A stretch of 64,000 bases of DNA, from NCBI GenBank assembly GCA_944322785.1, contig CALUPW010000001.1:124001-188000 (forward strand). Direction: 5' to 3'. Made by a program: the position numbers and the translations under genes. Positions 3,072-24,843 of this stretch are shown here, in pieces; positions within the stretch are counted from its first letter, which is position 1; the number at the start of each line of letters is the position of its first letter. Origin of the DNA: Candidatus Gastranaerophilales bacterium. Lineage in GTDB: Bacteria > Cyanobacteriota > Vampirovibrionia > Gastranaerophilales > Gastranaerophilaceae. The notes beneath the pieces are model-generated. The model made no database searches. It saw only the letters and a list, made by a program, of their open reading frames with translations, and was not told where the DNA came from.

Positions 3072-4934
3072 ATGGAAAAAAGTAAGCAGGTAAATAAAGA
3101 TAATTTAAAGGCTGAAAAGTCTAATATTACCAATCCTTTGAATGGCAAAGTCACAAATCCTATTGCCGATAAAGGAATTCTTGCACGTATAAACAATTTT
3201 AACGCTCAAAAGACAAACAACAGACTCTACAGCGGCTATGTTAATAACACAATTTCTAAAAAAACTGTTGATTTTATTGATTTTGTGGCAAATATCAACG
3301 TGGCATTGAAAGATAAAAAAACATCATCTGATATGTTTACGGCGCTTCATGACGTTTTTACGGAAAAACTCAACTGCATGTTTACGGCATTCGGGCTTTT
3401 TCATGAAAAATCAAACTGTATAAATTTGAAACTTCAAAACAAATTCGGAAGCACATATTCTTCAAAAATCTTTATGTCTGATGAGATGAATCCCGTTGTT
3501 GAAAGTTTTCGCACATCAACTGTAATTTCCCGTGACAGCAACAAATTTTTAAATATTCCATACCTTCAGGAGTCCTCATCATTTATAATTCCGCTGGTTT
3601 CGGTGAATAATTGTATCGGTGTAATGATTGTCGGAATGGATGCAACAGAAGCCGAAAATACCCTTCTTTCGTTTGTTGCAAACCTTGCTGCAATGTTTAT
3701 TGACAACCTCAATCTGCGTGAAAAGGCGAACAAATATGATAATACGGACACCCTGACATCTTTGTATAATCACAGAGGATTTCAAGAAGTTTTAACAACA
3801 GAGCTTCAGCGGGCAAAAGATAACAAAACCCATCTTTCAATAATCATGATGGATGTAAATAATATTTCAAAAATAAACCGTGAACTCGGTCATGCCAAAG
3901 GTGATGAAGTTATAAGACTTCTTGCTGATAAAGTTAAACAAAATATCCGCAACAACGATAAAGCAGGACGTTACGGAGGGGATGAAATAGCGATTATTCT
4001 TCCTGATACGAATACGGCTGATGCCAAGTATCTGGCAGAATATATAACCTATACACTTTCCTGCTGTTTTGTTGACGACGTTGGGCCGGTAAAAGTTTCG
4101 GTCGGAATTTCAACCTACCCTGACTGTACGGAAGATCAGGAAAAACTTCTTGTTCTGGCAGAACAGGCGATGTATATTTCTCAGGCAAAAGGCTACAAAG
4201 AAGGCATGTCAGCCATTATAAGCAGCAGTGACTACAACTTCTGGAGTGATGACAGTCTGAGTTCGTTTGCAGAAGTCCTTGCCAAACGTCATGCGCAAAT
4301 GGGTATCAATTTTGAAGAAGAACTTGTTCATAAATTTAATAATGAACAAATAAGTTCGCAAAACCATCTTATGGAAATGGTTACATCGCTTGCAGGCGCA
4401 ATTGATGCAAAAGATCCTTATACAAAAGGCCACTCAACATCTGTTTCAAGATATTCCGAGGCTCTTGCCCGTGCAATCAACCTTCCTGAAGATGAAGTTG
4501 AAAGAATAAAACTTGGCGCACTGCTTCATGATGTTGGCAAAATCGGTATTCCGGAAAATGTTCTTAAAAAACCTTCTCATCTTTCGGACGATGAGTGGCA
4601 AATAATGAAACAACACCCTGTGATAGGTGCAGAAAAAGTTCTTGCGCCGAACGAGGCTTTGCGTGATTTAATTCCGATGGTAAAATACCATCACGAACAT
4701 TATGACGGCTCTGGTTATCCCGAAAAATTGAAAGGTGAAGAAATTCCGCTTTCCGCAAGAATCGTTGCCGTCGCAGATGCATTTCACGCATTAATTTCGG
4801 ACAGACCTTACCGCAAAGGGCTAGGAGTTGAAAAAGCCTGCGAAATTTTGAAAATGGGTGCAGGAAGCCAGTGGGACAGTGATCTGGTAAGACAATTTAT
4901 AACAATTGCGCCGTCCCTGTCAACGAGCATTTAG
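3072..4934 (+). CDS. GAF-GGDEF-HD-GYP cyclic-di-GMP signalling protein
   Basis: The 620-residue cytoplasmic protein has no membrane segment. A GAF-like sensor region spans about residues 70-215. A GGDEF domain follows (about 225-380), with YGGDEI as active-site motif (Ile in place of Phe) and RNND five residues upstream, matching the RxxD inhibitory I-site. A C-terminal HD-GYP phosphodiesterase domain covers about 430-615, with LLHDVGKIG near 483 and HHEHYDGSGYP near 546. It could both make and degrade c-di-GMP, or use the GGDEF domain as a regulatory GTP/c-di-GMP sensor. The start is set by AGAAGG. It lies just upstream of a pilin-like gene, consistent with control of surface structures (inference). 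Confidence 0.92.
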   Translation: MEKSKQVNKDNLKAEKSNITNPLNGKVTNPIADKGILARINNFNAQKTNNRLYSGYVNNTISKKTVDFIDFVANINVALKDKKTSSDMFTALHDVFTEKLNCMFTAFGLFHEKSNCINLKLQNKFGSTYSSKIFMSDEMNPVVESFRTSTVISRDSNKFLNIPYLQESSSFIIPLVSVNNCIGVMIVGMDATEAENTLLSFVANLAAMFIDNLNLREKANKYDNTDTLTSLYNHRGFQEVLTTELQRAKDNKTHLSIIMMDVNNISKINRELGHAKGDEVIRLLADKVKQNIRNNDKAGRYGGDEIAIILPDTNTADAKYLAEYITYTLSCCFVDDVGPVKVSVGISTYPDCTEDQEKLLVLAEQAMYISQAKGYKEGMSAIISSSDYNFWSDDSLSSFAEVLAKRHAQMGINFEEELVHKFNNEQISSQNHLMEMVTSLAGAIDAKDPYTKGHSTSVSRYSEALARAINLPEDEVERIKLGALLHDVGKIGIPENVLKKPSHLSDDEWQIMKQHPVIGAEKVLAPNEALRDLIPMVKYHHEHYDGSGYPEKLKGEEIPLSARIVAVADAFHALISDRPYRKGLGVEKACEILKMGAGSQWDSDLVRQFITIAPSLSTSI

Positions 4935-4935
4935 A

Positions 4936-4964
4936 TTGATAAAAAATGACATTTATGATAAAAT
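4936..4964 (+). promoter_or_regulatory. Promoter of poly-G prepilin locus 1
   Basis: TTGATA, 17 bp, TAAAAT, with TG one base before the -10 (extended -10). Predicted start near 4971, then AGAGGAG and ATG at 4991. Confidence 0.65.
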
Positions 4965-4990
4965 ATTATTTAGAATAAGAGGAGCTAAAA

Positions 4991-5044
4991 ATGGTGAAAA
5001 AGCAGACTATGATTGAAATTCGGGGGGGGGGGGGCAACCCGTAA
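4991..5044 (+). CDS. Leader frame of poly-G prepilin locus 1 (out of phase)
   Basis: ATG at 4991 follows AGAGGAGCT with good spacing and opens MVKKQTMIEIR. It then enters a run of 13 G and stops at TAA 5042 after GGGGNP. With 12 G (or 15) the same start would read straight into the pilin frame that is open from the G tract to 6044. This is therefore probably the true start of the pilin gene in its alternative phase, not a separate gene. Confidence 0.6.
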   Translation: MVKKQTMIEIRGGGGNP

Positions 5045-6044
5045 AACAGCTCCTGACAGCGATTTAACAATTAGTCATTTTGTGAACAACGACAATTCGA
5101 GTCCAAAGACTCTTAAAAAGACATGTCTTAATTCTTTTGATGAAAAAATAGAGTGTCACCCTGAACTTGATTCAGGGTCTATTAAGATAAGAAAAGATTC
5201 CGGCTCGGAGGCCGGAATGACGAAGATGGCGTCTAACAACCTCCGTCCCGCAGTCCGGAATGACAAATCAGGGTGCAAAGCCGCCTTCACCATGGCAGAA
5301 GTTCTGATAACCCTCGGCATAATCGGTATAGTCGCCGCCATGACTTTGCCGACGATAATCAATCGCATACAGGAAAAAGTTCTTGAAGCACGCTTTCGAA
5401 AAGTTTACAATATTTTAAATGTTGCTTGTGAAAAGACAGTTGCGGATTTAGGTTATGTTCCAAGCTGTTATAGCTGGATTCCGGGAGAGCGTCCGTATCC
5501 TGATCTTGAGTGCGACAGACAGGAAAACGGTGACTGCAACTGGTATTATCCTGACGGTGATATGCCTTCTGATTACTACGGGCCTAGGAATGATAATGAC
5601 TGTCGTATATTTGAGGAAGCATTAATGAAAAATCTTAATGTAATCCAGCAGTGTCCAGATGCCGAAGATGACGGGTGCACTGTGCATTACAAAGGTTCCG
5701 ATACTATTATGAAAGATAATGATAATTCACTTTCGGATGAGGAGGTTATGGCAGCAACAGCAGGCACGCCTGCTTTTAGAGAGGAAAATCTGAATAAATT
5801 ACCGGCAATTGTTCTGATAGACGGGATAACTTTTATTGACCCTCAGGAATCCCGTTACATAAATACATTACCTATAATTGATATAAACGGTAAAAGAGGC
5901 CCGAATAAATGGGGATATGATTTGTTTGTGTTCGGAAGAGTCGGTTCTACTAAAAAGGGGATATATTATATAGCAGGTTCTCATCCGGTTGAAAAAGGCG
6001 GAAGAACGTGTCAAGAAATGATAAAAAAACTTTTGGAAAGATGA
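5013..6044 (+). CDS. Prepilin-like protein, locus 1, behind a poly-G tract
   Basis: The pilin core starts near 5280: KAAFTMAEVLITLGIIG is a class III-type prepilin N-terminus (cleavage before Phe, Glu at +5), though -1 is Ala rather than Gly. About 230 residues follow, with several Cys. The frame is open back to the G tract at 5022. The only in-phase start there is a TTG at 5013 with no Shine-Dalgarno. Between tract and core lie about 85 codons composed partly of dispersed palindromic repeats (CHPELDSGS, DSGSEAGMT), an odd leader for a pilin. The likely product is a type II secretion/type IV pilus pseudopilin. Expression probably depends on tract length. Confidence 0.75.
   Translation: MKFGGGGATRKTAPDSDLTISHFVNNDNSSPKTLKKTCLNSFDEKIECHPELDSGSIKIRKDSGSEAGMTKMASNNLRPAVRNDKSGCKAAFTMAEVLITLGIIGIVAAMTLPTIINRIQEKVLEARFRKVYNILNVACEKTVADLGYVPSCYSWIPGERPYPDLECDRQENGDCNWYYPDGDMPSDYYGPRNDNDCRIFEEALMKNLNVIQQCPDAEDDGCTVHYKGSDTIMKDNDNSLSDEEVMAATAGTPAFREENLNKLPAIVLIDGITFIDPQESRYINTLPIIDINGKRGPNKWGYDLFVFGRVGSTKKGIYYIAGSHPVEKGGRTCQEMIKKLLER
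5022..5034 (+). repeat. Homopolymeric G tract, 13 bases
   Basis: Thirteen consecutive G lie 11 codons inside the leader frame. The sequence after it (CAACCCGTAAAAC, CTCCTG, GCGATTTAAC, GACAATTC, AGTCCAAAGA) is shared with locus 3 at 62157 onward. Confidence 0.9.
5155..5222 (+). repeat. Dispersed palindromic repeats within the prepilin leader
   Basis: Two short palindromic units are adjacent: CACCCTGAACTTGATTCAGG (5157-5176) and CCGGCTCGGAGGCCGG (about 5202-5217). Related units occur at about 10488, 31838, 62371, 62595 and 62640. They resemble REP-type elements. Confidence 0.7.
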
Positions 6045-6045
6045 G

Positions 6046-7353
6046 TTATCCGTAATTCACTTCATCGATAAAAATTTTAACCCACTTTACAAGACTTGAA
6101 AGTTCATAAGGTTTTGGCATATACAAGTCCGCTCCGCAATTTAGAACGAGTTCTTTGTCATGGAAAATTGAGGTTACAATAATTTTTGACTTTGAAAAAA
6201 TAGGATTTTCACGTATCAATTTACAAATTTCAAGACCTTTCAGATTTTCGCAACTGCCTGCATCAAGAATAATAATTGCAGGCGGATTTGGGATGTTTTG
6301 AAAATTCTGCAGGTTTTCAAAAATTTCAGTCTGATACCCCTGAAGATCCAGAATAGTTTTTAACAGAAGTTTCATAGCCTCATCAGGCTCTATAACCGCT
6401 ATTTTGTTATTAAATTTGTTTGTTTCAACAGCATTCTCCCCTGCGATTTTTGCTCTTTCAATTAAGTAGTTTGAACGATCAGGAAGTTTTGCAAGATTGT
6501 GAATGTTCAGTAATGCCGTCAATAGCTGATTTGTGTCCGTATATTTTTGAAATTCGTTTGTTACAATACCGATTGTTGTATGGACAAATTCCGTGCGTCT
6601 TCCGGCAAATTCATCGCCTTCAACTATGACATAACCACGTTTTAAATCCGGAGTGGAATAGAATTTTTTTGCAACCGAATCAAATGCAAATGTCAAAAAG
6701 TTTGCGATTTTTTCGGCTTTTAACGGATTTGTGATTATCAAAAATTCGTTTTCTGAAATTCCGCCCAGATAATCGTCATCATTCAATGATGATTGTATAA
6801 TTGCGCAAAACGTTCTGACCAGTTTATCAGAAGCAAGTTCTGTATATGTTTCACGGTAATTTTTAAAATTTTCAATACTTATATAAAGACATCCCCACAA
6901 ATCTTTGGAAGTCAAAATTCTTTTCAATGCACGCATTGAATAGCTGTTGTTCGGAAGAAGTTTTTTGTTGTCTAAATATGATTCAAATTCACGCCGCAGA
7001 TGTGCTTTTATCCGCATAACGAATTCTTCGTTGTTTACAGGCTCGCTCAAAAAATCGTCTGCGCCGTTTGCGAGTGCATTCAACCTGTCTTGAATTTCCG
7101 AAGATTTTGAAAGCGCAACAATTACGGGCCGCATGTTGTAGGTGAGTGCTCTGATTTTTTTACAGTAATCCCCGAGGTCATTGTCAATACTGTCTGATAT
7201 GATTATCAAATCAGGCTCTTTATCCTGAATGATTTTCATTGCAGAAATAAAATTTTTGCTTACAATTACTTTCAACTGTTCATTTTCAAGCAATTTTTTA
7301 TATTTAACCGAAAGCTCACGGCGTTTGTCAATAATTAAAGTTACAGACTGCAT
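6046..7353 (-). CDS. Response regulator with REC, degenerate GGDEF and second REC domain
   Basis: In this 435-residue protein, residues 1-125 form a receiver-like domain that seems atypical: DLIIISDS lacks a clear phospho-acceptor at the usual position and the Lys-Pro motif reads EP. Residues about 130-300 resemble a GGDEF domain whose signature is GGISENEF, so diguanylate cyclase activity is unlikely. Residues about 315-430 form a second receiver with LDAGS and MPKP, which look functional. The gene starts inside the 3' end of the histidine-kinase gene (13-bp overlap), so the two are co-translated partners. The output is unknown; no DNA-binding domain is visible. Confidence 0.85.
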   Translation of the reverse strand: MQSVTLIIDKRRELSVKYKKLLENEQLKVIVSKNFISAMKIIQDKEPDLIIISDSIDNDLGDYCKKIRALTYNMRPVIVALSKSSEIQDRLNALANGADDFLSEPVNNEEFVMRIKAHLRREFESYLDNKKLLPNNSYSMRALKRILTSKDLWGCLYISIENFKNYRETYTELASDKLVRTFCAIIQSSLNDDDYLGGISENEFLIITNPLKAEKIANFLTFAFDSVAKKFYSTPDLKRGYVIVEGDEFAGRRTEFVHTTIGIVTNEFQKYTDTNQLLTALLNIHNLAKLPDRSNYLIERAKIAGENAVETNKFNNKIAVIEPDEAMKLLLKTILDLQGYQTEIFENLQNFQNIPNPPAIIILDAGSCENLKGLEICKLIRENPIFSKSKIIVTSIFHDKELVLNCGADLYMPKPYELSSLVKWVKIFIDEVNYG

Positions 7354-8087
7354 TTTGCCCTCGCTTGTTTTTCAACGTTGCTTGCCGGAAGCTGAACCTC
7401 AAATGTCGTAAGATATTTTTCATCTTTTTGTTTTTCGGATTTAACGGAAATTTTTCCGCCCATTTTTTCGGTAAGATTTTTGGTTATATAAAGTCCCAGT
7501 CCGCTTCCCTGAACTTTTCGTGTCAGAGGATTGTCAATCCTTGAAAATTTTGTAAAAATCCTCTCATAATCATCTTCTTTAATTTCAATTCCCGTATTTA
7601 TAACATCTATTCCGATAAATTCGCAATTCTCGCAAAATCCGCTCTTAATTATAATCGTTGAATCTGTATCTCCGTATTTTGCTGCATTTTCAATTAAATT
7701 TGTCATTATCTGAAGAAATTTATCTTTGTCTGCAAGAATAGAAGGGGTTTTATCATCTATTTGAATTTCAAATTTTTTGTCCGCATACTGGCTTTTTACA
7801 ATTGATACGGCTGTTTCCACAACAGGTTTTATTGCGGTTTCTTTTAACAAAAGATTGTCCCTTCCGCTGGAAATTCGGGTTACGGACAGCATGTTTTCAA
7901 CAAGATTGATAAGTCTGTTTGACTGGTCTTCAATTATTTTTAAAAATTTTTTCTTGCTTTCATCATCAATTCTATCCCATGACGATAGCATTGTCTGTGA
8001 AAAGCCCCTTATTGATGTTAACGGTGTTCTCAATTCATGGCTTACTGTTGATATAAAATCTTCATAACTTTTCTCAATTTCACTCAT
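7341..8087 (-). CDS. Sensor-less soluble histidine kinase
   Basis: The 248-residue protein consists only of a kinase core. The dimerisation/phosphoacceptor motif SHELRTPLTSIRGF puts the His at residue 17. The ATPase domain shows NLIENAAKYGD (N box) and GSGLGLYITKNL (G box). Only 16 residues precede the His box and there is no membrane or sensor domain, so its signal must come from a partner protein. No upstream extension is possible in frame near the start. TATAAT ends 6 nt before the ATG, suggesting a leaderless message. The following response regulator overlaps its 3' end. Confidence 0.9.
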   Translation of the reverse strand: MSEIEKSYEDFISTVSHELRTPLTSIRGFSQTMLSSWDRIDDESKKKFLKIIEDQSNRLINLVENMLSVTRISSGRDNLLLKETAIKPVVETAVSIVKSQYADKKFEIQIDDKTPSILADKDKFLQIMTNLIENAAKYGDTDSTIIIKSGFCENCEFIGIDVINTGIEIKEDDYERIFTKFSRIDNPLTRKVQGSGLGLYITKNLTEKMGGKISVKSEKQKDEKYLTTFEVQLPASNVEKQARAKCSL

Positions 8088-8099: not shown

Positions 8100-8195
8100 A
8101 CAAATTTTTTGTAAAAATAAAACCTACATCATTTAGAGGATATTTAGATATATTTTCAAAGTTTTTGTTTTTAATTTTCGTTAATAAAAATACAG

Positions 8196-8272
8196 ATATG
8201 AAAAACGAAAGTTTTTCATACCTCCTCCCCAAGTCTGGTAGCCGTTCTTATTAAAAAAGACGGCTTTTTTTT
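8196..8272 (+). ncRNA. Candidate small RNA with unpaired CCTCC stretch
   Basis: Three elements follow each other on the plus strand: a perfect 9-bp hairpin with GAAA tetraloop (ATGAAAAAC / GTTTTTCAT, 8198-8219), an unpaired ACCTCCTCCCC (8220-8230), and an intrinsic terminator AGCCGT...ACGGCT with eight T (8240-8272). Both neighbouring genes run on the minus strand, so the plus-strand terminator serves no other gene. The layout resembles cyanobacterial Yfr1 (two hairpins around an unpaired CU-rich motif). The CCTCC could pair with Shine-Dalgarno sequences. No strong promoter is visible. Confidence 0.5.
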
Positions 8273-8274
8273 AT

Positions 8275-8309
8275 GAAAAAATACCGCCTTATTTTTTTTA
8301 AGGCGGTAT
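8275..8309 (-). terminator. Terminator of prs
   Basis: Stem ATACCGCCTTA / TAAGGCGGTAT followed by a T-run on the minus strand, just downstream of prs. Confidence 0.85.
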
Positions 8310-8350
8310 CAATCTTTTTCATCTTCCATTTATTAAAAAATCATTTGTGA

Positions 8351-9364
8351 TTAACTTACCTGAATGTCTTTTTCAAATCCGAATAATGAACTTACGCTTT
8401 CGTCATCATGTATTCTTGAAATTGCCTGCCCCAGAAGCGGTGCAACAGATAGCTGCTTGATATTAGGAGGCATTTTTGACATATCAAGCGGAATCGTATT
8501 TGTTACAATACATTCTTTTATCGGTGCATTTGCGAGTCTTTCGATTGCAGGCCCTGAAAATACAGGGTGTGCCGCACAAACATAAACTTCTTTTGCTCCT
8601 TCTCTCATCAAAAGTTTTGATGCTTCACAGATTGTTCCTGCGGTGTCGATTATATCGTCAAACATTACACACACTTTGTCTTTAACGTCCCCGATTACAT
8701 GAGAGGCAATCGCTTCATTGTGTTTGTCACGGCGTTTATCAATGATTGCAAGAGAACATCCTATTGATTTTGAAAAATGTCTTGTTCTTTGAACTCCGCC
8801 TGTATCAGGGCTTACTGCAACCATATCATCTGGGTTGATGTTAAGACTTTTGATATAATTTACCAGAATCGGCGTTGCATAAATGTGGTCTACAAGAATG
8901 TTAAAGAATCCCTGGATTTGTCCGGTGTGCAAATCCATTGCAAGAACCCTGTTTGCACCGGCAGTTGTCAATAAATCCGCAACAAGTTTTGCCGTAATAG
9001 CTTCACGACCTGAAGTTTTCCTGTCCTGACGGGCATAACCGTAATAAGGGATAACTGCAGTAATTGTTTTGGCACTTGCACGTTTAAATGCATCAATTAT
9101 AATAAGCAATTCCATAAGGTTTTCGTTAACCGGATTGCAAAGCGGCTGGATAATAAAAACGTCATCGCCGCGTACACTTTCTTTTACCTGAACATAAATT
9201 TCGCCGTCAGCAAAATTTTTGACCACCATAGGACCGATTGAAGTTCCTAAATAATCTGCAATTTCCTGAGCCAGTTTAGTATTTGAACGCCCTGCAAAAA
9301 GTTTTATGTCATGAGTCGGATTGATTGCACGTTCCAATTGCTCAGAAGCTAATTCTAATACCAT
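8351..9364 (-). CDS. prs: Ribose-phosphate pyrophosphokinase (PRPP synthetase)
   Basis: Makes PRPP from ribose 5-phosphate and ATP for nucleotide, His and Trp synthesis. Diagnostic motifs are KLFAGRSN, FADGEIYVQ, YYGYARQDRK, VSPDTGGVQRTR (catalytic/regulatory flexible region) and VMFDDIIDTAGT (PRPP-binding loop). The ATG at 9364 is chosen because AAAGG precedes it by 6 nt; the frame extends to a TTG at 9406 that lacks a ribosome-binding site. The length (about 337 residues) is slightly longer than the usual 310-320 because of the N-terminus. It is monocistronic with its own terminator. Confidence 0.96.
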   Translation of the reverse strand: MVLELASEQLERAINPTHDIKLFAGRSNTKLAQEIADYLGTSIGPMVVKNFADGEIYVQVKESVRGDDVFIIQPLCNPVNENLMELLIIIDAFKRASAKTITAVIPYYGYARQDRKTSGREAITAKLVADLLTTAGANRVLAMDLHTGQIQGFFNILVDHIYATPILVNYIKSLNINPDDMVAVSPDTGGVQRTRHFSKSIGCSLAIIDKRRDKHNEAIASHVIGDVKDKVCVMFDDIIDTAGTICEASKLLMREGAKEVYVCAAHPVFSGPAIERLANAPIKECIVTNTIPLDMSKMPPNIKQLSVAPLLGQAISRIHDDESVSSLFGFEKDIQVS

Positions 9365-9523
9365 TTTCATCCTTTCCGTCACCTTAACCGGTGAAAATAT
9401 CCGCAAAATTGAGGAAATTTTGCCTTAGTTCCTGTTAATTATTATATTATCCATGTTAATAAAACTTCAAGATTTTTTTAAGTAATATTACACAAAAAGG
9501 CATGGGCTTATCGGGGGAAATTT

Positions 9524-10328: not shown

Positions 10329-10557
10329 TTGTCAAGTCATGGATTTATTGTATTGCAGATACCCGTTACCATGAACTTGATTGACAAAGAAAATTTAAAA
10401 ACCGAAGATAGTTGCGGGGCTTTTATTTTTTGCAGCGCTGTATAGTGTGAAAGTTATCAATATTATAAAATCAAACCGGATAGACTCCGGCTCGGAGGCC
10501 GGAGTGACAATAATATCAAGATGTCGCATTCTTTCTCTCAAGATAGTATCGGAAAAT
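10329..10557. other. Intergenic stretch with one dispersed repeat
   Basis: No coding frame or RNA gene was recognised. CCGGCTCGGAGGCCGG near 10488-10503 is a copy of the palindromic repeat also found in prepilin loci 1 and 3. Confidence 0.6.
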
Positions 10558-24585: not shown

Positions 24586-24720
24586 CTATTCCTCAATTGT
24601 CTCTTCTGTCTTTTTAATCTTTTTCATTACATCATCAAACTGTTCTTTTATATACAAAAGAAACAATGAACATTCTTCTTTAAAGCTGTAAGCCCCCGGC
24701 CAAATCATATATCTGTACAT
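24586..24720 (-). CDS. 44-residue hypothetical protein
   Basis: A short frame with a good site (GGAGAAACTTT before ATG 24720) and its own downstream terminator. It encodes MYRYMIWPGAYSFKEE..., with a helical, Lys/Glu-rich C-terminus (DDVMKKIKKTEETIEE). It lies 123 nt behind the single-domain response regulator and may be co-transcribed. Function unknown. Confidence 0.6.
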   Translation of the reverse strand: MYRYMIWPGAYSFKEECSLFLLYIKEQFDDVMKKIKKTEETIEE

Positions 24721-24843
24721 AAAGTTTCTCCTTATCTAACCTTCTTACAAAAATTCTTATCGGTCGTTAAGGTGTCAAACTTTAGATAATTTTTCGTTTG
24801 GCTTTAAAAAACTTAACAATAGCCGGCAACGCTTAACCTGCTG

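Follow-up and report, generated by a model that had tools for sequence, protein, structure and literature searches.

An order-wide small RNA family of Gastranaerophilales with a sigma-28-type promoter and a conserved anti-Shine-Dalgarno linker

Gastranaerophilales is an order of non-photosynthetic gut relatives of cyanobacteria. The window analysed here, a stretch of 64,000 nucleotides from one of these bacteria, contains a short hairpin-bearing element between two genes of the opposite strand, and we asked whether this element is an RNA gene, what would transcribe it and on which messages it would act. As read from the window sequence, positions 8157-8273 of the plus strand comprise a promoter-like stretch, a hairpin, an unpaired linker and a terminator with a T run, within the following set of features:

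7341-8087, minus strand: histidine kinase (HisKA, HATPase_c), flanking gene outside the RNA
8157-8164, plus strand: -35 element of sigma-28 type, CAAAGTTT, identical to TAAAGTTT at 7 of 8 positions and conserved across the family
8177-8184, plus strand: -10 element, TTCGTTAA, after a spacer of 12, identical to GCCGATAA at 5 of 8 positions
8191-8272, plus strand: predicted small RNA of about 80 nt, its 5' end placed by promoter spacing and its 3' end by the terminator
8197-8220, plus strand: 5' hairpin with a 10-bp stem (8197-8206/8211-8220) and a GAAA loop, supported by folding and by covarying relatives
8221-8239, plus strand: unpaired linker CCUCCUCCCCAAGUCUGGU with the anti-Shine-Dalgarno seed, supported by its near-invariance
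8240-8273, plus strand: intrinsic terminator AGCCG.../...CGGCT, stem 8240-8265 and T run to 8273, supported by fold and conservation
8351-9406, minus strand: prs, ribose-phosphate pyrophosphokinase, flanking gene outside the RNA

Folding of the 82-nt transcript yielded -21.2 kcal/mol (z -4.4), a stability reached by none of 200 shuffles, and left the 19 nt of the linker (CCTCCTCCCCAAGTCTGGT) largely unpaired. Sequence and fold thus confirmed the succession of hairpin, unpaired CCUCCUCCCCAAGUCUGGU and intrinsic terminator that a preliminary description had proposed for the plus strand (approximately 8191-8272), opposite in strand to both the histidine kinase and prs; its GAAA-capped hairpin also stood, with a stem of 10 bp in place of the 9 bp first given. 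A simple consensus scan for terminators missed the plus-strand terminator of the small RNA, probably because of a loop or mismatch beyond the limits of the scan, and instead picked up the 5' hairpin as read on the minus strand. The same scan reported a two-way terminator at 8280-8310, between prs and the small RNA. The element occurs as a single copy in its own genome.

The preliminary description had also regarded the RNA as an orphan, a view that its distribution contradicts. BLASTN with an 86-base query located the element in 52 of 59 relatives, own genome included, so a chance origin can be dismissed, and a search of Melainabacteria with covariance model R1, a check that had been suggested beforehand, was positive for 278 of the 286 genomes of the order. 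Model R1 holds only four base pairs, and its searches rest mostly on primary sequence. Seven of the eight order genomes without a detected copy, a set that includes G012, are at least 90% complete; loss, an assembly gap or divergence may lie behind the missing copies. Across 292 genomes of the phylum, R1 matched 137, eight of them outside the order (8 of 161 sampled genomes); the latter matches were weak, with E values of at least 3e-5 and at most about 26 bits among the matches listed, and we take them to be chance terminators. A pattern scan of named genomes returned at least 115 stretches with the motif; most titles among those listed were Candidatus Gastranaerophilales, Melainabacteria or unclassified bacteria, and two unexpected ones, for a Clostridia MAG and a Brachyspira bin, both uncultured, we assume to be bin labels. 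None of the viral contigs searched carried the element.

Filtering reduced 152 instances to 144 and then to 69 or 81 by removing near-identical hairpins, copies with more than three differences and short flanks; the alignment omits three of the 69 rows, two from L031 and one from L035. The 36 nt ahead of the motif folded with z below -2 in 64 of the 69 non-redundant instances, against 1 of 69 for a control stretch just upstream. Each position of the 5' stem is occupied by several different Watson-Crick pairs across relatives, the hairpin changing in sequence with pairing kept, and the linker stays nearly invariant though the stems diverge: all positions of CCTCCCCAAGTCT[GA]GTAGCC are invariant or nearly so in the 81 instances. 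The preliminary description had tied its proposal of a free-standing small RNA with an unpaired anti-Shine-Dalgarno stretch to conservation of that motif in relatives, and the proposal is upheld by this near-invariance, part of which is built in by the motif-query pattern scan and whole-element BLASTN, with the weaker R1 matches providing a partial check. CCTCCCC was retained in all 20 weaker or variant copies among the matches listed, and in the divergent copies L209, L210 and L212-L215 extra bases separate it from AGTCT, indicating a two-module linker in which CCTCCCC is the better conserved part. Most changes within the linker of the 81 instances are transitions (C to T, A to G), which would still permit pairing with a fixed RNA partner and which mutation bias would explain equally well. 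The terminator stem has at least five pairs in 69 of 69 instances, and the T run at least six residues in 80 of 81. The locus very probably houses a real small regulatory RNA gene.

In some relatives (L047, L031, L041 and L048) the RNA is present twice or three times in tandem, L047 having three copies at a spacing of 362 bases. A second RNA type, CAATCTCTTCCCCAAGTCT, is found in L031, L041, L133 and L163; it keeps the sigma-28-like promoter, and the one copy folded (L031) lacked the canonical hairpin.

The nearest genes of 145 instances fell into 126 clusters, 96 of them with a single member, and these changing neighbours indicate that the gene is autonomous; prs adjoins the RNA, on one side or the other, at 32 loci, and the kinase does so at 20. 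An alternative would have the RNA act in cis, as leader, attenuator or 3' UTR element of an adjoining gene. It draws on the intrinsic terminator at the end of the RNA and on those copies that precede a gene of the same orientation, and is very improbable: where a neighbour was called, the right-hand gene shares the strand of the RNA in 39 of 121 instances and the left-hand gene in 56 of 120, orientation following no rule that would make the RNA the leader or tail of a gene; a promoter of its own lies upstream; and both neighbours in the window occupy the opposite strand. Even less credible is that the conserved letters encode a peptide: an ATG-started frame of 18 codons does cross the motif in the window (8198-8254, reading MKNESFSYLLPKSGSRSY), but sense frames of at least 12 codons span the motif in 48 of 81 instances in all three phases (13, 21 and 22), every codon position of the motif is equally invariant, and no frame is kept across the 81 instances. 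On the minus strand, 70 of 81 instances have an ATG or TTG behind a strong Shine-Dalgarno sequence, GGGGAGG; a gene in that direction was set aside, since it is the plus strand that has the conserved promoter and terminator, and since the hairpin base by itself accounts for the start codon. The RNA thus appears to be a free-standing gene equipped with its own promoter motif and intrinsic terminator.

The promoter, absent from the preliminary description, is of the sigma-28 type, for which the relevant passage of PMC2859248 gives the consensus TAAAGTTT-n11-GCCGATAA. The window's own promoter agrees with the consensus at only 12 of 16 positions; the mean best match to TAAAGTTT-n11/12-GCCGATAA was 12.6 of 16 over the 81 non-redundant instances, as compared with 9.2 for locally shuffled DNA and a best average of 10.2 among 200 permuted consensuses. 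Scores of 13 or more were obtained for 46 of 81 instances and for 0 of 1620 shuffles, and TAAAG is present in 63 of 81, where 13.5 would be expected. The end of the -10 element lies mostly 31-50 nt ahead of CCTCCCC, which would place the start of transcription at the foot of the hairpin. The -10 element is weak in the genus of the window and stronger in flagellated relatives; the mean promoter match was 13.9 in genomes with flagellin (n = 30) and 11.4 in those without (n = 23), a difference whose P of 6e-7 should not be taken at face value, the genomes being related.

Of the 59 relatives, 53 encode a FliA_WhiG (TIGR02479) protein scoring above the cut-off, among them the window's own genome, G000 (243.9 bits, cut-off 189.6); G058, the only genome of the set that shares just the class, had neither a copy of the RNA nor a FliA above the cut-off. 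Flagellin_N was found in 29 of 59 relatives and in 0 of the 14 genomes of the window's genus, and loss of flagella in some Gastranaerophilales has been inferred before, in passages of PMC4040986. The RNA is apparently switched on by the sigma factor of the flagellum even in species that lost flagella. The FliA gene of G000, a genome without flagellin, lies at G000:C6:4024-4851 (L207), adjoining OmpA-like (a call made by eye) and MVDA-type proteins and not flagellar genes.

Sites resembling sigma-28 promoters could mark a wider regulon in G000. Four of its 11 sites with up to two mismatches, and a fifth site with three, are placed 27-36 nt ahead of an ATG; the genes concerned encode an HD_5 protein, one with LysM/lysozyme domains and three that match no Pfam family. 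Genome-wide, such sites (up to three mismatches) numbered 95, with no excess over the 103 for a reversed control, and 476 kb of the genome held 34 as against 53 for the reversed consensus; sites being no commoner than control patterns, the regulon is put forward only as a suggestion. One sigma-28-like site in the window, TAAAGTTT-n12-ACCGATAA, matches at 15 of 16 positions (24784-24757, minus strand, within 24586-24784) and has downstream TAAGGAG and a 44-codon frame beginning MYRYMIWPGAYSFKEECSLF.

We compared the RNA with known families. The likeness to Yfr1 that the preliminary description had drawn is one of general plan, not of kinship: as portrayed in the cited passages, Yfr1 (RF01116) and this RNA each have two stem-loops split by an unpaired CU-rich stretch (16-20 nt in Yfr1, 19 nt here), have a CUCCUC core in common, and are each near-universal in their own lineage of the same phylum. 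However, the ultraconserved undecanucleotide of Yfr1, ACUCCUCACAC (PMC2190773), is absent here, where aligned relatives keep CCTCCCC, and the RF01116 model detected none of 30 relatives while finding its control, Synechococcus elongatus; membership in Yfr1 was therefore rejected. At the locus, RF01116 was not among the matches up to an E of 10. The present RNA has a sigma-28-type promoter. At the gathering score, Rfam 15 gave no match in the window (best at the locus 29.1 bits, gathering score 100), and matches at 19 variant loci were weak and all below gathering scores.

The alphaproteobacterial alpha-r14/cuckoo small RNAs (SmelA075, SmelA099, NfeR1) use CCUCCUCCC as an anti-Shine-Dalgarno motif, according to PMC3927594 and PMC10746234. 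The exact motif recurs here at 8221-8229 and is kept while the stems diverge; yet those RNAs repeat it, in single-stranded parts of three or four hairpins, and NfeR1 is transcribed from an RpoD promoter, whereas here it occurs once, in the linker between hairpin and terminator, behind a sigma-28-type promoter, and the hosts belong to different phyla. In Campylobacter, CjNC1 and CjNC4 pair over the ribosome-binding sites of target mRNAs (PMC4626219) and CJnc170/FlmR is a sigma-28-dependent small RNA (PMC11187230); as these sources describe them, they are likewise short, with a sigma-28-type promoter and a terminator, but act on flagellar genes, unlike an RNA kept in a flagellin-free genus. The Escherichia coli small RNAs UhpU, MotR, FliX and FlgO, under fliA control according to PMC10578931, are derived from UTRs, in contrast to the free-standing gene described here. 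By the tests made, the RNA is a member of none of these families.

The messages that such an RNA might reach were sought in 465 start regions, crudely called, within 476 kb of its own genome. The preliminary description had seen many genes with AGGAGG-type sites, which was not borne out: the common site was AAGGAG (62 of 465), with AGGAGG at 11 and GGGGAGG at 1, indicating that only a minority of mRNAs would be within reach of the seed. Sequences complementary to the CU-rich part do concentrate at starts (AGGAGG, 9 in -24 to -3 versus 0 in control stretches; GGGAGG, 5 versus 1), as they must, being Shine-Dalgarno sites, and complements of AGUCUGG or AAGUCUGG were not enriched at start sites. 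Pairing energies over the 465 regions showed no excess over shuffled seeds (mean -10.3 versus -9.9), with 60 regions at or below -14 kcal/mol compared with 58.2. The top energy matches were mostly G tracts near prepilin-like genes, the G runs there giving the strongest pairing energies with the RNA. These runs (FTMAEVLITLGIIGIVAA), located at or close to where prepilin-like genes begin, occur near 5013 (plus strand), upstream of a minus-strand prepilin-like frame, and in L231, L234, L237 and L244; they are possibly switchable tracts, and Tandem Repeats Finder reported nothing at 4900-5300.

Among individual candidates, dnaB was rejected, since the GGGGAGG ahead of it is not kept outside the closest genomes, and so was a long antisense target or sponge, as a genome-wide search for ACTTGGGGAGGAGG with up to two mismatches returned only the locus itself and one site with two mismatches. 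The leader of ybaB offers a lead, not a demonstration: of 30 leaders examined, 17 have CAGACT a few nucleotides ahead of GGAG (those of every one of the 14 genomes in the genus, plus G019, G020 and G023) and the other 13 lack it; G012, in which no copy of the RNA was detected, keeps it. This leader is not entered by any long upstream frame, and by eye a TATAAT-like box precedes the motif in the genus. The bipartite pattern AGACT...GGAGG had 31 matches in the genome, 16 belonging to a dispersed repeat and two to the small RNA locus; inspection of 12 of the remaining 13 identified two before starts, those of ybaB and of a 176-aa protein, and the reversed control pattern gave 16 matches. The dispersed repeat, with AGACTCCGGCTCGGAGG or a close variant, occurs at about 10482-10498 of the window and in at least 15 other places of G000.

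The best explanation, to which we assign a probability of roughly 0.6, is that this RNA works as a free-standing, FliA-transcribed, trans-acting small RNA that masks Shine-Dalgarno sites rich in GGAGG or GGGAGG. RNA polymerase with FliA (sigma-28) would start just upstream of the 5' hairpin and stop at the terminator, releasing an RNA of about 80 nt whose hairpin would shield the 5' end and present the unpaired linker. Through its CCUCCUCCCC part the linker would block ribosome binding on a small subset of mRNAs by pairing with their purine-rich Shine-Dalgarno sequences (GGAGG, GGGAGG, AGGAGG), and the adjoining AAGUCUGG may add selectivity on some targets, such as those with CAGACU ahead of a GGAGG site, as in the ybaB leader. 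Sequence conservation, the pairing of the hairpin, the terminator, the promoter motif and the joint presence of a FliA gene are what the data show; that the RNA is transcribed, depends on FliA and pairs with mRNAs, and which targets it regulates in which direction, is inferred.

Two other readings leave the RNA real and conserved. Its partner might be a protein or another RNA, the anti-Shine-Dalgarno appearance being coincidental, for about 20 nt are near-invariant, including AAGUCU[GA]GU, whose complement is not enriched at starts, and target energies are no better than those of shuffled seeds; we consider this unlikely, given that CCTCCCC is the best kept segment even where bases are inserted before AGTCT and that unrelated small RNAs are known to use precisely CCUCCUCCC as an anti-Shine-Dalgarno motif. 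It is likewise rather unlikely that the main or another sigma factor reads the promoter in place of FliA, which would leave the RNA outside a sigma-28 regulon with the same action on mRNA possible. The weaker promoter match in flagellin-free genomes and the lack of an excess of own-genome sites over reversed controls speak for that reading, whereas a family fit to the consensus far above shuffled DNA, the retention of FliA and the own-genome sites positioned 27-36 nt before an ATG argue for FliA.

No small RNA was described for Gastranaerophilales in the open-access literature searched, and the present one represents a real, order-wide and previously unlisted family with a sigma-28-type promoter, with a likely mechanism and candidate targets. 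A bolder idea, which we offer tentatively and do not favour at present, is that a core output of the flagellar sigma factor has outlived the flagellum: an order-wide FliA would drive one ultraconserved anti-Shine-Dalgarno RNA that damps chosen housekeeping mRNAs, ybaB first, and flagella-less lineages would have kept FliA and the RNA as a switch unrelated to motility, independently of Yfr1 and the cuckoo RNAs and with nearly the same motif. If the mechanism holds, the RNA would be the first core riboregulator of the largely uncultured Gastranaerophilales, would partly account for the persistence of a flagellar sigma factor where flagellin is absent, and would show the CCUCCUCCC anti-Shine-Dalgarno solution to have arisen independently in a sister group of the Yfr1-bearing cyanobacteria.
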